Shown here: positions 25,572 through 35,122 of the stretch, piece by piece
How the letters are laid out: each line of letters opens with the position of its first letter
How positions within the stretch are numbered: the first letter of the stretch is position 1
DNA from: Haloarcula rubripromontorii
GTDB taxonomy: Archaea > Halobacteriota > Halobacteria > Halobacteriales > Haloarculaceae
Direction: 5' to 3'
Assembly (NCBI RefSeq): GCF_001280425.1
Contig: NZ_LIUF01000004.1
Span: 290,076-354,075 of the forward strand
Length of the DNA: 64,000 nt
Position numbers and translations under genes: made by a program
Notes under the pieces: generated by a model
What the model was told of the DNA's origin: nothing
The model's database searches: none
What the model saw: the letters and a program-made list of their open reading frames with translations, nothing else

Positions 25572-26345
25572 TTAATAGTGCCCGAGAACACCCCGTTTTC
25601 GCGCTTTAGCTGTTCCAACCCGGAAGACAAATAATCCTATCGCTAGGTAGGCAACCGCCTGCCCGACCAATACCCCAAGGTCGAATACTGGAAGTTCCCA
25701 TACGCGGAGTCCATCCGTCATTACTCGTTGCAATAAGTGGCTCCCCAGCGACATTGGAAAGAGCTTCAACAATGCATACTCTCCGACTGGCAAGACAATC
25801 AGGGCTGCAAACGAGAGTTGGATCAGTGGGAACACCTTCTCAATTTGCTTGTAGACGAGCGCCACTCCGCCGAAGACGAACCCGAGACCGACCACGGGGA
25901 GCAGCGTCAACACACAGAGCACGACGACCGAAAGCGGTGCAACCGAAAGCCAGGTCCCTGTCGTCACCATCATCGATATCAGAAGGGCGATGCCAGTAGC
26001 AAACGTTCCCAAGAGGTTAACTAGAGTCTTTACCGCCACAATCTCTGTGAAGCCGAACGGAGACATCGACAGCTGCTCCAGTGTTCCCCACTGCGCCTCG
26101 TCAGTCAAGTCATGCGTGAGATCAGCATATGCCGACACTGCCATTGTAAAGAGGAAATACCCTACAACGAGCAGTCCGACTGACTGTGAAACTAAATCTT
26201 CTGCCACAAACTGTCCGCCGAAAAAAATGAGTGCGAAAAACACATACAGCGTTATGAGTCCCACCACTGTATTCACGAGATAGCGACGCGAGAGCGTTAC
26301 TGATTTACTCGCAATCGCTCGAAACAAAGCGAGATGTCGATTCAT
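25572..26345 (-). CDS. ABC-2 type transporter permease
   Basis: A 257-residue integral membrane protein with about six hydrophobic segments. The motif QWGTLEQLSMSPFGFTEIV after the second segment is characteristic of ABC-2 exporter permeases (type EQL.xSPxxxxEI). It overlaps the ATPase gene by four bases (ATGA), so the pair makes one transporter. The substrate is unknown. It lies 2 kb from the RiPP-like operon on the opposite strand and could export its product or give self-protection, but nothing in the sequence proves a link. Confidence 0.85.
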   Translation of the reverse strand: MNRHLALFRAIASKSVTLSRRYLVNTVVGLITLYVFFALIFFGGQFVAEDLVSQSVGLLVVGYFLFTMAVSAYADLTHDLTDEAQWGTLEQLSMSPFGFTEIVAVKTLVNLLGTFATGIALLISMMVTTGTWLSVAPLSVVVLCVLTLLPVVGLGFVFGGVALVYKQIEKVFPLIQLSFAALIVLPVGEYALLKLFPMSLGSHLLQRVMTDGLRVWELPVFDLGVLVGQAVAYLAIGLFVFRVGTAKARKRGVLGHY

Positions 26346-27349
26346 GACTCTGTCTCCTCTGGTGGCAGTGATTCAGATGTTGTCAGCTCAACGAAAACAT
26401 CTTCTAGATCGGGATCAATTTCAGTGAACGACCGGACAGTCGCTTCTGCTGTCTGCAGTATGTCGACACACTCGAAGAATTCTTCACTGCCTGCAAGCCC
26501 GATCTCAAATTCCACGCAGTCAGTGTCGGTCCGCCAGTTGAGTAGCCGGAAGCGGGTGTCAAGTTGCTCTCGGAGGTGTGCTGGCGGGGTCTCGGTCAGT
26601 TGGACACGATATGATTGAGACTGAAAGACATCGAGTAAGTTGTCGACGGAATCATCAGCGACGATTTCGCCGTCATTGAGAACAATCACACGGTCACAGA
26701 CGACTTCGATGATATCCATATCGTGACTCGTAATCACTATAGTTTTGCCCTCTTCTTGGACGAGGCGTTGTAGTTCGGTTTGGAGGTCACGGGTTGTTTC
26801 TACATCGAGCCCAAGCATCGGTTCGTCAAGGAAGAGAACAGGCGTTTCGCGAGCGAGCGCACAGCCAAGGGCGACTTTCTGCTTCATGCCACGCGAGAGG
26901 TTCTTTGCCGGTTCGTCCGCCTTTCCAGTAAGTCCAAGCGTGTCGATAATCGCCTCATGTCTGTCGACACGTGCCTGTGGATCGATGCCGTGGAGGCCAG
27001 CGAAAAATGCGAGGTTTTCACGAGCGCTCAATCGCCAATATACGTTGCGTGCGCCTTCGAGGACAGCACTCACATAGTTGTATGTGCGTGAACGGGCCTC
27101 ATGAACAGGGATGCCGTGGATAGAAATATCGCCATGTGTGGGGGTAATGAGCCCGAGAACCGTTTTGACGGTTGTTGTTTTGCCAGCACCGTTTGGGCCG
27201 AGGAGTCCGACGATTTGTCCGGGCTGAATATCGAAGGAAATGTTATCAACGGCTGTGACGCGTCCCGATTCTCCTGTATAGCGTTTTGTGAGGCCCGTGA
27301 CCGAAACTACAGGCTCATGTTCTGGAGGATCAGTTGAGCGGGGGCACAT
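26342..27349 (-). CDS. ABC transporter ATP-binding protein
   Basis: A 335-residue ATPase of the DrrA/CcmA type. Walker A GPNGAGKTT, Q-loop region, signature LSRGMKQKVAL, Walker B PVLFLDEPM, and the switch His in TSHDMD are present. A C-terminal ~100-residue extension (RVQLTETPPAHLREQL onward) is usual for drug- and peptide-exporting members. It is the first gene of a two-gene operon with the permease. Confidence 0.88.
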   Translation of the reverse strand: MCPRSTDPPEHEPVVSVTGLTKRYTGESGRVTAVDNISFDIQPGQIVGLLGPNGAGKTTTVKTVLGLITPTHGDISIHGIPVHEARSRTYNYVSAVLEGARNVYWRLSARENLAFFAGLHGIDPQARVDRHEAIIDTLGLTGKADEPAKNLSRGMKQKVALGCALARETPVLFLDEPMLGLDVETTRDLQTELQRLVQEEGKTIVITSHDMDIIEVVCDRVIVLNDGEIVADDSVDNLLDVFQSQSYRVQLTETPPAHLREQLDTRFRLLNWRTDTDCVEFEIGLAGSEEFFECVDILQTAEATVRSFTEIDPDLEDVFVELTTSESLPPEETES

Positions 27350-27605
27350 CGTTTGCAGTCCCCTATTCGGTGGACAGTCTTAAGAATACTTAGGATGATA
27401 GGCTCTTATATACTGCTACGGAAGGTCCTGATAACGGGTTATTCGATGTTTGGCTCGATTGATTCGCAAGCCAGAGTGAGTGACCGAACGATGCCGAAGG
27501 TGTAAACAGCTTGTTCCAAGCCTTGCTTAGTATAAGATTCGGAATTTCCGTAGCCACGGTGAAACAAGCGAAAAGAGGCACTTATGCTTGTTAATGCGGA
27601 CACCG

Positions 27606-27829
27606 CATTCGTCTTTAGCTAATACTCACGGTAATACTGTTAGACAGTGTTTTTCGGTCGAATTTGGCCTACACACCACACCAAAACGCCAAAAACCACC
27701 GATTTTAGCGAACCTCCTCGCAGGAACTCACAAGGAACAGCTTCTCAACCGACAGAATTGTTTCTTCCAGGACTCATAGTTATAATCATACCTCAAAGAA
27801 TTACTACTGGTGCTAGCTAAAGACGAATG
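27606..27829. mobile_element. MITE (224 bp) with 16-bp inverted repeats and 10-bp target duplication
   Basis: CATTCGTCTTTAGCTA at 27606-27621 is exactly repeated in inverted form at 27814-27829. The 10 bases GCGGACACCG lie directly outside both ends (27596-27605 and 27830-27839). There is no transposase, so movement needs an element elsewhere. The CAT-start of the ends and a 10-bp duplication fit IS4-family elements of the ISH8 kind, from memory. The surrounding noncoding DNA (27350-27595) shows no gene that I recognise. Confidence 0.88.
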
Positions 27830-27839
27830 GCGGACACCG

Positions 27840-28287
27840 TCAGACGATGAGAATTACAATTGTGAATGAATCCGGAAGTCATGCTCCATCTCTCTGCATG
27901 CTTGGAGTCCGTCAGTTCAGGCCCATCTCAGTGGCGGCTCCGTCAGCGTGAGTGAAAGTACGCCCACGCTATGGACGGGACGTGGACCCCTCAAAATTCC
28001 TTGAGTCGGCACTCGATGTGGGCAACTAATGGTTCCGTGTCGATCTTGACGCCGAACTCAATCAACTCTTGGAACATTCTGCCGAATACCAGTTGAATAA
28101 ACCCCACTCTCAGCCTGTCGCTGGCTCAGTGTAACTACAGGTCTATCCATCACATTACACAAGAGCGGTGGCTCTGTACATCACACTCCACCCGAACTTC
28201 ATCAGCGGGTGAATTAACTCCCACAGAGTGAAAATACTACTATCAGGTGAAAGACTCCCTATCAATTGAGACGAAATTTTCCAGTAG
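27840..28287. other. Noncoding stretch with coding relics before the RiPP-like operon
   Basis: A 16-base string GTGGCGGCTCCGTCAG (27931-27946) also occurs at 17959-17974. A broken acidic reading frame near 27996-28135 (FLESALDVGN, stop, then ELNQLLEHSAEYQLNK) looks like the remains of a gene. No intact gene was found. Confidence 0.35.
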
Positions 28288-28294
28288 TTATAAG
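28288..28294 (+). promoter_or_regulatory. Probable TATA box of the RiPP-like operon
   Basis: GTTATAA centred about 30 bases before the ATG at 28322. This spacing would put the transcription start next to the start codon, giving the leaderless or near-leaderless mRNA usual in haloarchaea. Confidence 0.45.
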
Positions 28295-28321: not shown

Positions 28322-28552
28322 ATGTCGCACCAAACAGTGGTCGACATCATCGAGCGGTCGATGAGTGACCTAACCTTCGCGCATCGTTTCAAATCAGATC
28401 CGGAAAGCATCCTCAAGGAGTATGATGACCTGACTAAAGAGGAGACTGAAGCACTGAAGTCAGGGAATCAGAACAAACTGAATCAGATCGTCGAGAAGCG
28501 GGCGAACGGTATCCAGATCGCAGGTATCGTCCTGCCATCGTCCGAGGCTTGA
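28322..28552 (+). CDS. Borosin-like RiPP precursor peptide
   Basis: A 76-residue peptide. ATG at 28322 is chosen over the longer frame from 28247 because it fits the TATA spacing and the small-precursor fold. Residues 1-60 are helical (TVVDIIERSMSDLTFAHRF, DPESILKEYDDLTKEETEAL, SGNQNKLNQIVEK) and have the layout of the helical recognition domain of split borosin precursors such as Shewanella SonA, including the LTxEE...L.SGN..KL pattern. The C-terminal tail NGIQIAGIVLPSSEA is rich in Ile, Val and Leu like known borosin cores. Pro72 is the only proline outside the helical domain (the other is Pro27), which matters because the operon encodes a prolyl oligopeptidase. It is first in the operon, 24 bases before the methyltransferase gene. 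Confidence 0.75.
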   Translation: MSHQTVVDIIERSMSDLTFAHRFKSDPESILKEYDDLTKEETEALKSGNQNKLNQIVEKRANGIQIAGIVLPSSEA

Positions 28553-28576: not shown

Positions 28577-29419
28577 ATGACTACAAGCACACAGAGCAAC
28601 CCGATTGATATATACATCATTGGGACTGGAATGGTGGGCTACACTCAACTGACTCGTGAAGCTGAAAACGCACTCCAAGCTTCTGAGCGGGTGTATCTAC
28701 TTGACGGTCAACCGATGGTGGAGAATCATATCAAAGAGACCTATACCGAAGACGTAGTTATGCTCAACCGCGAGTACAATGAAGGCGAAGATAGAGTCGC
28801 CACATATGACCGGATGTCAGAAGAAGTACTTAAGGGAGCTACAGAGGTCGATGGACCGATCACATTTGCTCTCTACGGACATCCGATGATATTCGTCAAT
28901 CCAAGCAGGAGCGTCATTCGACAAGGGCGGGAACAAGGATTGAACGTCGAAGTTCAGCCAGGAATATCCGCCATCGATTGTGTATACTCAGATATTGCTT
29001 TTGACCCTGCGGCAAACGGCGTTCAAATGTTCGAAGCTACCGATTTATTGCTTCGAGAGTGGGAACTCAATCCGGAAGTTCCAGCAATGATTTGGCAGGT
29101 AAGCGTGGTAGAGACTGATCGACATTCCGAAAAGAAAAGTAAAGAAAGTCGATTCACCCGTTTCAAAGAATATCTCCAGAATTTCTATCCGGAAGACCAT
29201 ACCGGGTATTTACTCCAAACAGCCACTTATCCAATTGCCGAATCACAACGACATGAGTTCGAAATATCAAACCTTGAACAGATGGCCCCAATACTCGATA
29301 AAGGCTATTACATCCTTCATCTACCCCCAATCAATGAACGTGACCTCCAAAATGAGGAGCTGTTACAAGAAGTTCGGTCAGAAGACCACCTAGAAGAGAT
29401 AACTGTCAGAGATAATTAA
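28577..29419 (+). CDS. Borosin-type peptide backbone alpha-N-methyltransferase
   Basis: A 280-residue SAM-dependent enzyme with the tetrapyrrole-methylase fold: IIGTGMVG (14-21) at the N-terminus, YGHPMIFVNPSR (100-111), and VQPGISAIDCVYSDI (126-140). It differs from cobalamin and SUMT methylases and keeps marks of borosin methyltransferases (OphMA, SonM), among them EYNEG and RVATYDRM: Tyr67, Arg73 and Tyr77 fall where the catalytic Tyr/Arg/Tyr of OphMA would be expected. There is no precursor core fused to its C-terminus, so it is the split form acting on the 76-residue peptide next to it. The expected reaction is iterative methylation of backbone amides in the core. It is cytoplasmic. Other tetrapyrrole-methylase functions are less likely, given the neighbours. 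Confidence 0.82.
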   Translation: MTTSTQSNPIDIYIIGTGMVGYTQLTREAENALQASERVYLLDGQPMVENHIKETYTEDVVMLNREYNEGEDRVATYDRMSEEVLKGATEVDGPITFALYGHPMIFVNPSRSVIRQGREQGLNVEVQPGISAIDCVYSDIAFDPAANGVQMFEATDLLLREWELNPEVPAMIWQVSVVETDRHSEKKSKESRFTRFKEYLQNFYPEDHTGYLLQTATYPIAESQRHEFEISNLEQMAPILDKGYYILHLPPINERDLQNEELLQEVRSEDHLEEITVRDN

Positions 29420-29440: not shown

Positions 29441-31489
29441 ATGGACAATCCACCCGAGACAAAACGGTCTAACACGAGCGATCTTTTTCATGGTGAAGTC
29501 GTCCCTGATCCATACCAATGGCTTGAAAACGAGGACGAAGAAGTATACCACTGGGTAAAGAAGCAAAATCTCTATACTGATAGTGTTCTTTCGACCGATA
29601 CTCGCGAGTTTCTCAAAGATCAGCCCGAGTTCTCCACTAACATTTCGGATCCAGGGACGATAACCCCGACAAAAAACGGATACTACCAACTACGACGTGA
29701 GGCGGGTAAGGACCACTCAAATTTAACGTTTCGACAGACCCTCACTGACTCACCGACTACGATCTGCGATCCCACAGAAGACTTGAATAGTGACCTGAGT
29801 GCGATTGATTGGTTTGTTCCTTCTCCACAAGGTGAATACGTCGCGTTTGGCGTATCACAGGGTGGCCGCGAGCAGTATGATATTCACGTTGTTCATAGCG
29901 GACAGCGGACCATATTAGTAGAACCGGACTGTGGTCGGACAAACGCTGGTGGGTTTGCGTGGGGAGAAAACGGATTCTACTATCTTCAAACTGAACCCTG
30001 CGAGGAGGGTCTCATCAAAAAGAGTGTTGATTACTACGATCTAAGTACTGACGAATCTAACACCGTTGTAGATAGTATAGCGCAACGGTTATGGCCACAA
30101 ATCGTCCCGCAAAAAGGAACTGATAACGCGATCGTTGCACTGCATGATGGCACGAATCGAACTCAATTATATCATCTTTCCCAATCCGGGTTCGATCCGA
30201 TATACATTGAGAGTGAAAGCCACTTTAGACCGGTGAAGTACACGGATCTGGGTGAACTCTATGTACTTACAGATGTCCAGTCGTCTACCTATGAGCTTAT
30301 TTCTCTCTCCGCTTCCAAAACATATCCTGATAAAGCCTCTCTCCAGGCCAGCAGTAAACAGATACTCCAAAGTGACCGGCTTCTCCGTGATGTCTCGGTG
30401 CTGGACGATCACATTGTCGGACACTATCAAAAGAACGCTAACTCGCGGCTTACCATTTACGACCGGTCAGGGTGCTTTACTCAACCAGTGGAATTACCAG
30501 ACTATTGCACTTTAATGGCAAATAGCTTAGCAGCGATTCCGAACGCATTTGTATTCAACCTCACATCCTTTGTGACTTCACCATCCACAATAGAGATTCA
30601 GGTTGATCAAAGCGCTGCCAAGTCTAACTCCGACAATTATCTCTCTAAAACAGTTATAAACGAGCCGGCGCTGGATTATCAATCAGAGTTTGAGGTGGCA
30701 CAGTGCTGGTTTTCAGCCGATGACGGCGCTGAGATCCCATTCTTTATCGTATGTAAAGAGGATATAGAACTCAAGACACCCAATCCTGCCCTCATTAATG
30801 TTTATGGTGGATTCGGTGTGACTATGACACCGAGCTTTGATCGCTTTATATTTCCCTTCCTTCGTAACGGTGGCATCTATCTACAACCCAATATTCGCGG
30901 CGGTGGTGTATTCGGAGAGTCATGGCATCGGCAAGGAATGCAGGAGCAAAAACAGCGTACTTTCGACGATGTAATCAATTTTGCCGAGCATCTTGTCAAA
31001 AATAATTATACTAATCCTGAGAAGCTCGCAATCACTGGGGAGAGCAATGGTGGACTTACTGTCGGCGCGACTGTAATGCAACGGCCGGATCTATTCAGTG
31101 CTGCTATCTGTGAAGTCCCCCTGTTGGATATGATCCGATTTAACCAGATTGGGCTTGGAGAAACATGGGTCTCAGAATATGGTAATCCGAATGATAAAGA
31201 CGCGTATCGGAATCTAAAATCATATTCACCATATCATAATATTAATGAAATTGAATATCCGATAATGCTATTCCGTACTGCAATTGGTGACACGCGTGTC
31301 CTTCCATGTCACGCTTGGAAAATGGCCGCAAGGATGCAGTCAAAGGCTCAAGGTGATAGTCCAGTTCTCCTCAGGACTACAGAAAATGCAGGTCATGGAG
31401 TTGGAACCTCCACACACGGAGAACTAACCAATGAACTTGACAAATGGACGGTGATTTTTGAAAGTGTAATAAGCTCAAATACGCTTTAA
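29441..31489 (+). CDS. Prolyl oligopeptidase (S9 family)
   Basis: A 682-residue serine peptidase. The N-terminal VVPDPYQWLEN and a seven-bladed propeller (about residues 70-410) precede the alpha/beta-hydrolase domain. The catalytic triad is readable: Ser535 in GESNGG, Asp617 in IGDTRV, His652 in AGHGVGT. Oxyanion and family marks VYGGFG and NIRGGG are present. No signal peptide, so it is cytoplasmic, like other prolyl oligopeptidases that act on peptides below ~30 residues. It follows the methyltransferase by 21 bases. In fungal omphalotin synthesis, a prolyl oligopeptidase is the partner of the borosin methyltransferase, so here it probably releases (or cyclises) the core after Pro72. This step is inference. 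Confidence 0.85.
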   Translation: MDNPPETKRSNTSDLFHGEVVPDPYQWLENEDEEVYHWVKKQNLYTDSVLSTDTREFLKDQPEFSTNISDPGTITPTKNGYYQLRREAGKDHSNLTFRQTLTDSPTTICDPTEDLNSDLSAIDWFVPSPQGEYVAFGVSQGGREQYDIHVVHSGQRTILVEPDCGRTNAGGFAWGENGFYYLQTEPCEEGLIKKSVDYYDLSTDESNTVVDSIAQRLWPQIVPQKGTDNAIVALHDGTNRTQLYHLSQSGFDPIYIESESHFRPVKYTDLGELYVLTDVQSSTYELISLSASKTYPDKASLQASSKQILQSDRLLRDVSVLDDHIVGHYQKNANSRLTIYDRSGCFTQPVELPDYCTLMANSLAAIPNAFVFNLTSFVTSPSTIEIQVDQSAAKSNSDNYLSKTVINEPALDYQSEFEVAQCWFSADDGAEIPFFIVCKEDIELKTPNPALINVYGGFGVTMTPSFDRFIFPFLRNGGIYLQPNIRGGGVFGESWHRQGMQEQKQRTFDDVINFAEHLVKNNYTNPEKLAITGESNGGLTVGATVMQRPDLFSAAICEVPLLDMIRFNQIGLGETWVSEYGNPNDKDAYRNLKSYSPYHNINEIEYPIMLFRTAIGDTRVLPCHAWKMAARMQSKAQGDSPVLLRTTENAGHGVGTSTHGELTNELDKWTVIFESVISSNTL

Positions 31490-31551: not shown

Positions 31552-32349
31552 ATGTCCCCTCCATCCCCCTCCATTGAGGAATTCATTCCTGAGGTTCACC
31601 AACGGATTGATTTTTTTGAGTTCCTATCAAACTCACCTGCTAGCCAGAAGGAACTTAACCGAGAATTAGACAAGTCACAGTCTACAATTTACCGCGGACT
31701 CAACTCAATGGAGGAGTACGGTTTAATAGAGAAACGAGATGATGAGTATCAACTAACACCATTTGGAGTGCTGATTTTCGACGAATATCGACGGTTTTCA
31801 GAGACTATAAAATCCTTACTACAGAATAGAGAGGTATTTGATACAACACAGCCGATCAACGCAGTTCTTCACCCATCGCTCTTCCAAGGAGCGAGAATTC
31901 TATCAACAAATGATTACATCGTGGAGGAGATATATGAGAAGTTACAGTCGTCTATTTCTGAAGCCTCACATCTCTATGGGGTCGCGCCAACAATCTTTCC
32001 TAACCAAATTGACCTGCATCTTGAGAAGACGACTGCCAACGAATTGACGGCTGAATTCATTTTGCCACATAGCGCTATTGAGTATCTCCAATCTAATTTT
32101 AACGGGAAATTAGATACACTCCAGAGCAGTGATAATTTCTCGATACGGGTCAGTCAAGAGACTCCTCCGGTTGGTCTTATCACCGTCTTAGAACCGAGTA
32201 AGAAAGTGGTTATCGTCATCCATGACGAGATTGGTACAATTCGAGGATTGGTCATTTCGGAGAATCCCGAATCTATTACGTGGGGGAAGAGGACCTACCA
32301 GAGTTTCCGAGAGGATTCGATTAGTTTTGAATCCTACGCTACTTCATAG
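31552..32349 (+). CDS. Winged-helix regulator with FilR1-type effector domain
   Basis: A 265-residue archaeal transcription regulator. Residues ~8-75 form a winged helix (SQKELNRELDKSQSTIYRGLNSMEEYGLIEKRDDEY), and the rest resembles the FilR1/DUF1724 domain common in haloarchaea, with AVLHPSLF and GLITVLEPSKKVVIVIHDE. It is on the same strand, 62 bases after the peptidase, so it may be part of the operon and control it, perhaps in response to the peptide product. No operator could be picked out with confidence. Confidence 0.75.
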   Translation: MSPPSPSIEEFIPEVHQRIDFFEFLSNSPASQKELNRELDKSQSTIYRGLNSMEEYGLIEKRDDEYQLTPFGVLIFDEYRRFSETIKSLLQNREVFDTTQPINAVLHPSLFQGARILSTNDYIVEEIYEKLQSSISEASHLYGVAPTIFPNQIDLHLEKTTANELTAEFILPHSAIEYLQSNFNGKLDTLQSSDNFSIRVSQETPPVGLITVLEPSKKVVIVIHDEIGTIRGLVISENPESITWGKRTYQSFREDSISFESYATS

Positions 32350-32555: not shown

Positions 32556-33537
32556 ATGGACTCAGCAACCCTGCAAGATGATCCTTCGATAGAGTCGTTG
32601 TTCAATGTCGCGGAGACGGAGACGTTAGCGTTGTTTGAGCATCTCTCCTTTGAGTTTCTCGCATAGTTCAACGTGTTCGCCCCGGCAGAGACGGGGCGAA
32701 CACGAGAGCATGAGCCACCAGTGATGATGTGTGGCTTCCTCCATTGCTACTACAAAGACATCTACGGCATTGGTCCGGTTGAGGGGGCGCTTCAGAACAC
32801 GGTTGTTTGTCTGAGCTGTGGCTTCGATCGACCGTGGTCAAGAGACACGGTCAATCGCTTTCCACCGACCTCAAACACGTCGTTGGCGATGTCTTCGACC
32901 ACCTCGTCGAGCAGGCCGCCCGCCCCGGCCTGCTCGACTTGACCTACTGCATTGATTTGTATGACGTGAGGCGATGCCTGCCGATCAAAACGCTTCGGAG
33001 TGCTACGATCCAACCGGTGACGAGTACTACTACGGATACGGCTGTACGATCGTTTCGACCGGGCAAAAGTTCCCAATTGCAGCCGAGTTCACCGAGAGCA
33101 AACAAGCGCCAGAGGAACGGCGATGCGTGTCACGCACGACGCGCTGGCCGTCGGCAAGCTGAGATGGATGCTCGGAGACAGTGCCTACGACATCCTCGAC
33201 TGGCACGACCTCCTGCGGCGTCGTGCCAATCGCTCCGTACAACCCGCGAAACACTGACGACCCGAAAGATATCGAGTACAGAGTTGAAGACCGCATCGAG
33301 GAATACAGCAAGGACGTTCAGCTGAAGCAATCCATCTTAGACGAGACGTACAATCACCGGACAGGAGTCGAACGAACCAACGACGTGGTCAAGGACTGCG
33401 GCCTCGGGCACGTCCGCGCCCGAGGCCGCGTCCACGCACGAACAGAGGTGTATCTTGCACTGTGTCTCCGACTCGTCATTGCAATCACCAACTACGAGCG
33501 GGGCGACGATCCTGGCCGCGAGAAGCTCAAGCTATGA
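32556..33537 (+). pseudogene. Dead transposase with several frameshifts
   Basis: Starting at ATG 32556 (SATLQDDPSIESLFNVAE), fragments in all three frames join into one transposase: MMCGFLHCYYKDIYGIGPVE, SCGFDRPWSRDTVNRF, LKHVVGDVFDHLVEQAARPG, DPTGDEYYYGYGC, WMLGDSAYDILDWHDLL, and a long C-terminal piece VPIAPYNPRNTDDPKDIEYR to REKLKL at 33537. At least four frameshifts and an in-frame stop near 32664 make it non-functional. The intergenic bases on both sides (32350-32555, 33538-33776) show no intact gene. Confidence 0.8.
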
Positions 33538-33869: not shown

Positions 33870-34253
33870 TTACTTCATTCCGTAGCCCATCTTTCGCAGT
33901 TCATCTTCAACTGTCCGAGATTCATCATTAGCAGCCAATACGATTGCCTCGCAAACATCAATCTTGTACACAGATTCCGATGCGAAGATATCGTCCATGG
34001 TATCAACAATCTCTTCAACTCGGGATTCAGCCTCGTCTCGAAGGAAGAAATTTGCGTGGCTTCGTTCGTCTTGAACACTATCACGTCGGTACTTGAACGG
34101 CAGTGCCTCAGTGTCTTGATTAGCGGTTTCAATCACCTGTGTCTCGGTGTCGATCTGGTCGGCCTGCTTAGCCTCTTCTCCCGTCTCGTTCCCCTCAGCG
34201 TCGTCATCTACGTCGAAATCGTCCTCGAACGGGGACCCTGCGCCGGATTTCAT
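33870..34253 (-). CDS. Acidic ParA-partner protein (probable centromere binder)
   Basis: A 127-residue protein with a disordered acidic N-terminus (DDFDVDDDAEGNETGEEA) and a compact helical C-terminus (FFLRDEAESRVEEIVDTMDDIF, KIDVCEAIVLAANDESRTVEDEL) that resembles the small DNA-binding partner of archaeal ParA operons, perhaps a ribbon-helix-helix variant. It overlaps the parA gene by four bases (ATGA) and comes second in the operon. By analogy it would bind the repeat array upstream of parA and load plasmid DNA onto the ATPase. Specific DNA contacts cannot be read. Confidence 0.6.
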   Translation of the reverse strand: MKSGAGSPFEDDFDVDDDAEGNETGEEAKQADQIDTETQVIETANQDTEALPFKYRRDSVQDERSHANFFLRDEAESRVEEIVDTMDDIFASESVYKIDVCEAIVLAANDESRTVEDELRKMGYGMK

Positions 34254-35122
34254 GCGTCAAACGCCTCCTCGATGTCGGCCGCGAGGTCATCGTACTTTTC
34301 CAGCGTTTCGTGCTCGCGGTCAGGAACCCGTCGGATGCCCTTCTCGCCGTCCTTGAAGGCCTCATCGACCACCTCATAGGCAGTCGCCCGAGCGTCCCAC
34401 ATCTCCTGCATGAGCGACTCGCGTTTGCGGAATACCGTCGGAACGTCGTAGTCGACATCTTCCTTGAGCGTCGCGAGGTGTTGCTTCTGACCGGTTGTAT
34501 CACCAAAGGCGATGGGCACGATTCCTAGAACCCCGACCTCGATGCCGAGGTTGTCCTCAAGTCCGTCGACCAACTGCTCCAGGCCGTCGATGCTGAGCGA
34601 GCCTTTGCCCGACAGTTCGACCGGGATGAGAACCGTCTGTGTGACCATGACCGCGTTGTAGAGGGCCTGTCCCTCGGATGCTTGTGGGTCACAAATGATG
34701 ACATCGTACTGTTCGTGGATGCCGTTGCGACCGAGAAGTTGGTACAGTTGCTCTTCTTCAACCCACTCGGCATCAGGATTCATCTGCTCTTCAGTCTCTT
34801 TAGCTCGACGCATCGTCGTATCCAGCGATGAGAGCATATTGTGGGCTGGGATGACATCGAGGTTGTCGACACCAGTGTCCTCTCGAATGAGACCCTCAAA
34901 CGATCCCTTGCCACGGCCTACCATGTGCCGGACAAGGTTGTCCGCAGCACCGTCATCGCGGTCGTCGTCGACGTCGAAGATATACGAGAGTGAGGCCTCC
35001 TGTGGGTCGAGGTCGATGACGAGCGTTTTGAGGCCGTTCCGAGCGTGCGCGTGGGCGAGATTCGCTGCGGTCGTTGTCTTCCCGACCCCGCCAGCCTCGC
35101 TGTAGGTTGTGTATGCCAGCAT
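34250..35122 (-). CDS. parA: ParA-family partition ATPase
   Basis: A 290-residue ATPase of the ParA/Soj/MinD superfamily. The deviant Walker A motif is EAGGVGKTTTAANLA (residues 9-23), Walker A' VIDLDPQEAS and Walker B VIICDPQAS. It segregates low-copy plasmids by ATP-dependent nucleoid binding. There is no N-terminal helix-turn-helix extension, so autoregulation would depend on the small partner encoded after it. The upstream region is packed with AGTA repeats that probably act as operator and centromere. Confidence 0.88.
   Translation of the reverse strand: MLAYTTYSEAGGVGKTTTAANLAHAHARNGLKTLVIDLDPQEASLSYIFDVDDDRDDGAADNLVRHMVGRGKGSFEGLIREDTGVDNLDVIPAHNMLSSLDTTMRRAKETEEQMNPDAEWVEEEQLYQLLGRNGIHEQYDVIICDPQASEGQALYNAVMVTQTVLIPVELSGKGSLSIDGLEQLVDGLEDNLGIEVGVLGIVPIAFGDTTGQKQHLATLKEDVDYDVPTVFRKRESLMQEMWDARATAYEVVDEAFKDGEKGIRRVPDREHETLEKYDDLAADIEEAFDA

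Follow-up and report, generated by a model that had tools for sequence, protein, structure and literature searches.

A predicted borosin-type precursor encoded with an N-methyltransferase and a prolyl oligopeptidase in Haloarcula rubripromontorii

Borosins known in their mature form are few, since in most cases no peptidase is at hand that would free the core (PMC11395268). In SonA/SonM of Shewanella oneidensis, a type IV split borosin, a separate precursor of about 75 amino acids is encoded beside an N-methyltransferase of the TP-methylase fold. The SonA borosin-binding domain (BBD) consists of five helices and is followed by a short C-terminal core, the methylated residues are L63 and I65 (PMC8429565). 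Mutation of Y58, R67, Y71 or Y93 of SonM affects catalysis or cofactor binding (PMC8429565).

Omphalotin is a fungal type I borosin made by OphMA and OphP, which combine an N-methyltransferase with an S9A prolyl oligopeptidase (POP). The P1 pocket of OphP is formed by Phe502, Asn581, Trp621, Tyr625 and Val668, and the alanine mutant of W621 is inactive (PMC12235650). Besides Pro, both OphP and GmPOPB accept N-methyl-Gly or N-methyl-Ala at P1, OphP in the order N-methyl-Gly > Pro > N-methyl-Ala and GmPOPB in the order Pro > N-methyl-Ala > N-methyl-Gly (PMC12235650). OphP is not bifunctional; removal of the leader falls to some other protease of the host, and a nonapeptide macrocycle did not form in that study (PMC12235650).

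The stretch of Haloarcula rubripromontorii DNA analysed here (the window, 64,000 nucleotides) contains a cluster that shares elements with both systems. Its features are as follows.

25572-26345 (-), membrane partner of the ABC transporter, without a Pfam match itself
26342-27349 (-), ABC transporter ATPase, with a 45% identical homologue beside the borosin genes of genome G207
28288-28293 (+), TTATAA, resembling a TATA box and lying ahead of the precursor start, putative in function, also present in the Haloarcula plasmid relative
28322-28552 (+), split-borosin precursor gene, 76 aa, predicted from the Os17 model NF038399, a SonA profile match, a structural model and structural alignment
28322-28504 (+), leader, residues 1-61, predicted five-helix borosin-binding domain, aligns to the dbOphMA clasp and the SonA BBD
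28496-28501 (+), K59-R60, possible site of the leader-side cut, shared with the POP-bearing relative
28505-28537 (+), predicted core NGIQIAGIVLP, residues 62-72, from low pLDDT, tail identity in the relative and correspondence to SonA
28535-28537 (+), codon of Pro72, last residue of the predicted core
28538-28549 (+), predicted follower SSEA, read from the sequence, putative in role
28577-29419 (+), borosin-type alpha-N-methyltransferase, 280 aa (dbOphM 3.9e-31, SonM 4.3e-21)
29441-31489 (+), S9A prolyl oligopeptidase, 682 aa (Pfam PF00326/PF02897)
31552-32349 (+), HVO_A0261_N/FilR1-type winged-helix regulator, conserved in the relative

The precursor gene is followed after 24 bases by the methyltransferase gene, after a further 21 bases by the POP gene and then by the regulator. 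Precursor and methyltransferase are thus separate adjacent genes, the layout of a split borosin in the type IV sense and a difference from omphalotin. Unlike SonA/SonM the cluster is archaeal, its methyltransferase is distant from SonM, and it has a linked POP, an ABC transporter, a regulator and a proline at the end of the core with a four-residue follower. The two ABC transporter genes lie upstream of the precursor in divergent orientation and probably encode the exporter of the product. The G207 homologue of the membrane partner (45% identical) matches ABC2_membrane_3 with 29.1 bits, below the cut-off of 31.6. In G207 (L014:5376-8777) an ABC ATPase, a membrane partner, two different precursors and a methyltransferase are encoded in one direction, with no POP.

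Between the ABC genes and the precursor a stretch of about 720 bases (27490-28211) is similar to IS1595-family elements of haloarchaeal plasmids; it is a decayed IS1595-like insertion. A ParA-like ATPase is encoded at 34250-35122 (-) and a transposase-like ORF at about 32807-33537. The surroundings of the cluster are plasmid-like and mobile.

The precursor ORF runs from an ATG at 28322 to a TGA stop at 28550-28552. This ATG is preferred over the GTG at 28247, since homology starts there and TTATAA lies at 28288-28293, a placement that would suit a leaderless haloarchaeal transcript. The C-terminus reads ...NKLNQIVEKRANGIQIAGIVLPSSEA*, and the tail NGIQIAGIVLPSSEA comprises residues 62-76, encoded at 28505-28549. 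The first-pass annotation recognised this tail but began it five bases late, at 28510. Pro72 is, as stated there, the sole proline of the tail and is followed by SSEA; the precursor has a second proline at Pro27 in the leader (SDPES), which is invariant across the homologues. The same genome was searched with NF038399 for a second precursor, and only the one at 28322-28552 was found.

The leader points to the borosin class. The NCBIfam model for Os17 RiPP leaders (NF038399) matches residues 5-59 with 39.2 bits (E 5.6e-10), just below its curated cut-off of 40 bits. A profile built from seven haloarchaeal precursor homologues matches the SonA leader in the PDB with E 0.003-0.009, and Os1348 with E 1.9e-5. 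AlphaFold2 predicts helices at residues 5-15, 17-25, 27-31, 39-47 and 50-61, a count equal to that of the SonA domain; the five-helix assignment comes from a model with pLDDT about 75 in the leader. From residue 63 onwards the model has no structure and pLDDT is under 50. Residues 3-62 superpose on the dbOphMA clasp (Z 8.0, rmsd 2.1, 59 residues) and residues 5-57 on the SonA BBD (Z 5.9, rmsd 2.0, 52 residues), although Z values below 13 carry little weight on their own when the fold is a bundle of helices. Nearly all matches listed in this structural alignment are borosin or LigA-like/Os1348 domains. Foldseek E-values for the leader are above 1.

An ungapped alignment pairs SonA G45 with G48 of the precursor and places the methylated SonA residues L63 and I65 at I66 and G68, inside the tail. 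The stretch KRANGIQIAGIVLPSSEA covers I66, G68, L71 and Pro72. Because the predicted binding domain ends at residue 61, the tail is likely to be the core region, as had been proposed. With a borosin N-methyltransferase adjoining, the ORF at 28322-28552 is, judged by these similarities, almost certainly a borosin-type precursor, in agreement with the first-pass annotation. The long C-terminal follower domains of five bacterial loci (L022, L023, L026, L031 and L033) are absent from it. Three other bacterial borosin-type precursors (L025, L027 and L030) contain very long polyproline stretches followed by a C-terminal domain.

The methyltransferase residues Y67, R73, Y77 and Y100 correspond to SonM Y58, R67, Y71 and Y93 and are invariant in all eight haloarchaeal sequences. 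In the methyltransferase tree the haloarchaeal sequences form one clade (support 96/96). The gene is rare, being present in 9 of 391 genomes of the class, and a small related ORF adjoins it in every haloarchaeal locus found (9/9), with two copies in G207. A scan of genome contigs with the single methyltransferase sequence gave no match, and none was found in viral contigs scanned with the single sequence and with a profile. In a genome of the same phylum but outside the order, a 426-aa fusion (L074:991-2271) has an Os17-like N-terminus, a proline-rich middle and a C-terminal borosin methyltransferase; it resembles a type 0 fused borosin.

The POP has the beta-propeller and hydrolase fold of S9A prolyl oligopeptidases. 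Prolyl endopeptidases head its structural matches (Z 39.9-43.4, OphP 41.1). The catalytic triad S535/D617/H652 is intact, and the P1 pocket consists of F458, N536, L561, W576, Y580 and V620, all but L561 matching the OphP residues listed above, with W576 at the position of W621. On this point the first-pass annotation is supported, the linked enzyme having a proline-type pocket. In sequence the enzyme is nearer to the bacterial POP 2bkl (3e-83) than to OphP (6e-58); general POPs are at least as similar to it as OphP is. A tree drawn without OphP places it within the haloarchaeal POPs, at the end of a long branch (support 80/80), and its recruitment was therefore probably separate from that in the fungi. 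We liken it to the OphP-type borosin macrocyclase in its presumed working, which does not imply membership. A search of its genome at E<=1e-20 matched no second close S9A POP. Oligopeptidase B specificity, by which this enzyme would cut after K59/R60, was rejected: set against the residues that we take to be characteristic of oligopeptidase B, W576, Y580 and R619 are of the prolyl type. A single POP gene was seen in the neighbourhood of bacterial borosin loci, in a Gemmatimonadaceae MAG; it is on the opposite strand with an apparent signal peptide and is not convincing as a linked borosin peptidase.

The closest annotated relative is plasmid NZ_CP010533 of Haloarcula sp. CBA1115, which carries the same cluster, and the same sequence is present in genome G005. 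Gene order is the same, the precursor is 93%, the methyltransferase 96% and the POP 80% identical, and residues 61-76 are identical (16/16). In the plasmid the 0.7 kb IS1595-like remnant ahead of the precursor is missing, and the annotation of the genes goes no further than hypothetical protein, SAM-dependent methyltransferase and POP-family peptidase. Between the two clusters dS is 0.80 for the methyltransferase, 0.75 for the POP and 0.85 for the regulator; in the precursor it falls to 0.17, and over the last 16 codons to 0.08. The dN/dS ratios of the POP (0.15) and the methyltransferase (0.027) indicate purifying selection on the operon. Since residues 61-76 are kept while the synonymous sites of the neighbouring genes have strongly diverged, the conservation of the tail is more than chance.

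Conservation at synonymous sites is four- to fivefold higher in the precursor gene (28322-28549) than in its operon neighbours, and all 1444 windows of 76 codons taken from the five other genes have more synonymous changes than it has. This may be due to high expression, to a constraint at the RNA level or to local recombination. GC3 is 0.66 in the precursor and 0.43 in the methyltransferase and POP genes, which fits codon bias from high expression.

Homologous precursors in G347, G092, G251 and G207 (two copies) are encoded with homologous methyltransferases (46-57%) and have Os17-type leaders and aliphatic C-terminal tails, for example AAAVLVVVVNN and TSTVVIIVVV. Their five tails (82 residues) contain no proline, and no POP gene is nearby. 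A tail proline thus occurs with a linked POP in 1/1 independent clusters and in 0/5 tails without one, a difference that is not significant. The sole independent POP-bearing relative has an identical core, so neither a covariation of proline and POP nor a variable string before a conserved proline, which the first-pass annotation had named as support, is visible; the proline-free tails agree with a tie between Pro72 and the POP, on one independent case. The first-pass annotation had held that proline-free precursors in the presence of the peptidase gene would speak against its scheme. G347, G092 and G207 come near to this, their tails being proline-free and a POP being present but unlinked, probably as a housekeeping enzyme. 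A divergently transcribed Os17-type precursor adjoining a borosin-type methyltransferase is found at L017:8084-8890 (+), a locus identical with L020 (Halobellus clavatus). It ends in about six tandem repeats of DDNIGYTGDS and is possibly a multi-core archaeal borosin.

We propose the following scheme for maturation, to which we give a probability of about 0.6. Residues 1-61 would fold into a domain of helices through which the precursor binds to the methyltransferase encoded next to it. The enzyme would N-methylate backbone amides of the hydrophobic tail from N to C, with I66 and G68 as the counterparts of the SonA sites; Pro72 cannot be methylated as it has no amide N-H. A different protease would separate leader and tail, K59-R60 being the possible place for a cut on its C-terminal side. 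After that the linked POP probably cuts behind Pro72, SSEA would be discarded, and the ABC transporter would send the product out. K59-R60 lies at the end of helix 5 and is present only in the POP-bearing precursors, not in homologues without a linked POP. A cut at this point would give the 12-mer ANGIQIAGIVLP, which has the length of omphalotin. It is a better-motivated candidate than the 10-mer GIQIAGIVLP put forward in the first-pass annotation, since OphP is not bifunctional, the leader is removed by a host protease and no nonapeptide macrocycle was observed. Another protease on the leader side, one of the options raised in the first-pass annotation, is retained in this scheme, but the missing proline does not exclude the POP there, given the methylated P1 residues taken by OphP and GmPOPB.

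At Pro72 the POP may either hydrolyse the peptide or transfer it to the new N-terminus, giving a macrocycle. The hydrophobic core of similar length (12 if cut after R60), the short discarded tail and the pairing of N-methyltransferase with S9A POP recall omphalotin, while the predicted P1 is Pro in Haloarcula and N-methyl-Gly in omphalotin. Formation of a macrocycle is nevertheless doubtful. That a haloarchaeon forms a backbone-N-methylated cyclo(ANGIQIAGIVLP), or a closely similar ring, and so has its own equivalent of omphalotin is a tentative and likewise doubtful suggestion; it would take the split borosin methyltransferase together with a POP that was recruited independently and acts as macrocyclase.

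The peptide could be a borosin substrate that the POP cuts elsewhere, after N-methyl-Gly63, N-methyl-Ala67 or N-methyl-Gly68, either in place of the cut after Pro72 or in addition to it. These sites compete with Pro72 because OphP, a borosin POP, cuts after N-methyl-Gly and prefers it over Pro, and G68 corresponds to the second methylated residue of SonA (PMC8429565). However, the internal N-methyl-Gly residues of omphalotin remain within the product, and the position of OphP Ile606 is Leu561 here, as Leu in nearly all other haloarchaeal POPs, which makes such cuts unlikely. Just as unlikely is a role of Pro72 mainly as a stop for iterative methylation, with the POP degrading spent precursor or general peptides and other proteases releasing the product. 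Proline has no amide N-H to methylate and methylation runs from N to C (PMC8429565). POPs are common in haloarchaea (81/391 genomes, mostly without a borosin methyltransferase), so this one could serve general peptide turnover, and those relatives whose borosin methyltransferase has no linked POP do without one. Against this, the POP is operonic with precursor and methyltransferase in both clusters, and within Haloarcula a close POP match is found only in the two cluster-bearing genomes, with none in the others searched.

Finally, the small ORF might be another Os1348/LigA-like protein with an ordinary C-terminus and not a RiPP precursor. Similarities of its leader extend to Os1348, to gallate dioxygenase DesB and to parts of nitrile hydratase, and its Os17 score is slightly below the cut-off. 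This reading is very improbable: the SonA domain and the OphMA clasp rank near the top of the structural matches, a related ORF accompanies the methyltransferase throughout the haloarchaeal loci, and across homologues the leader is kept constant while the aliphatic tail varies.

The preferred reading is therefore that of a split borosin precursor with a methylated tail that the linked POP cuts after Pro72. As the precursor shares an operon with its own POP, release and possible cyclisation are directly testable, and haloarchaeal RiPP clusters can be expressed in Haloferax volcanii (PMC12144867). No archaeal borosin was found in the literature searched, and borosins go unmentioned in the main text of a survey of archaeal RiPPs from 2025 (PMC12144867). 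The Haloarcula cluster would therefore extend the borosin class to archaea.
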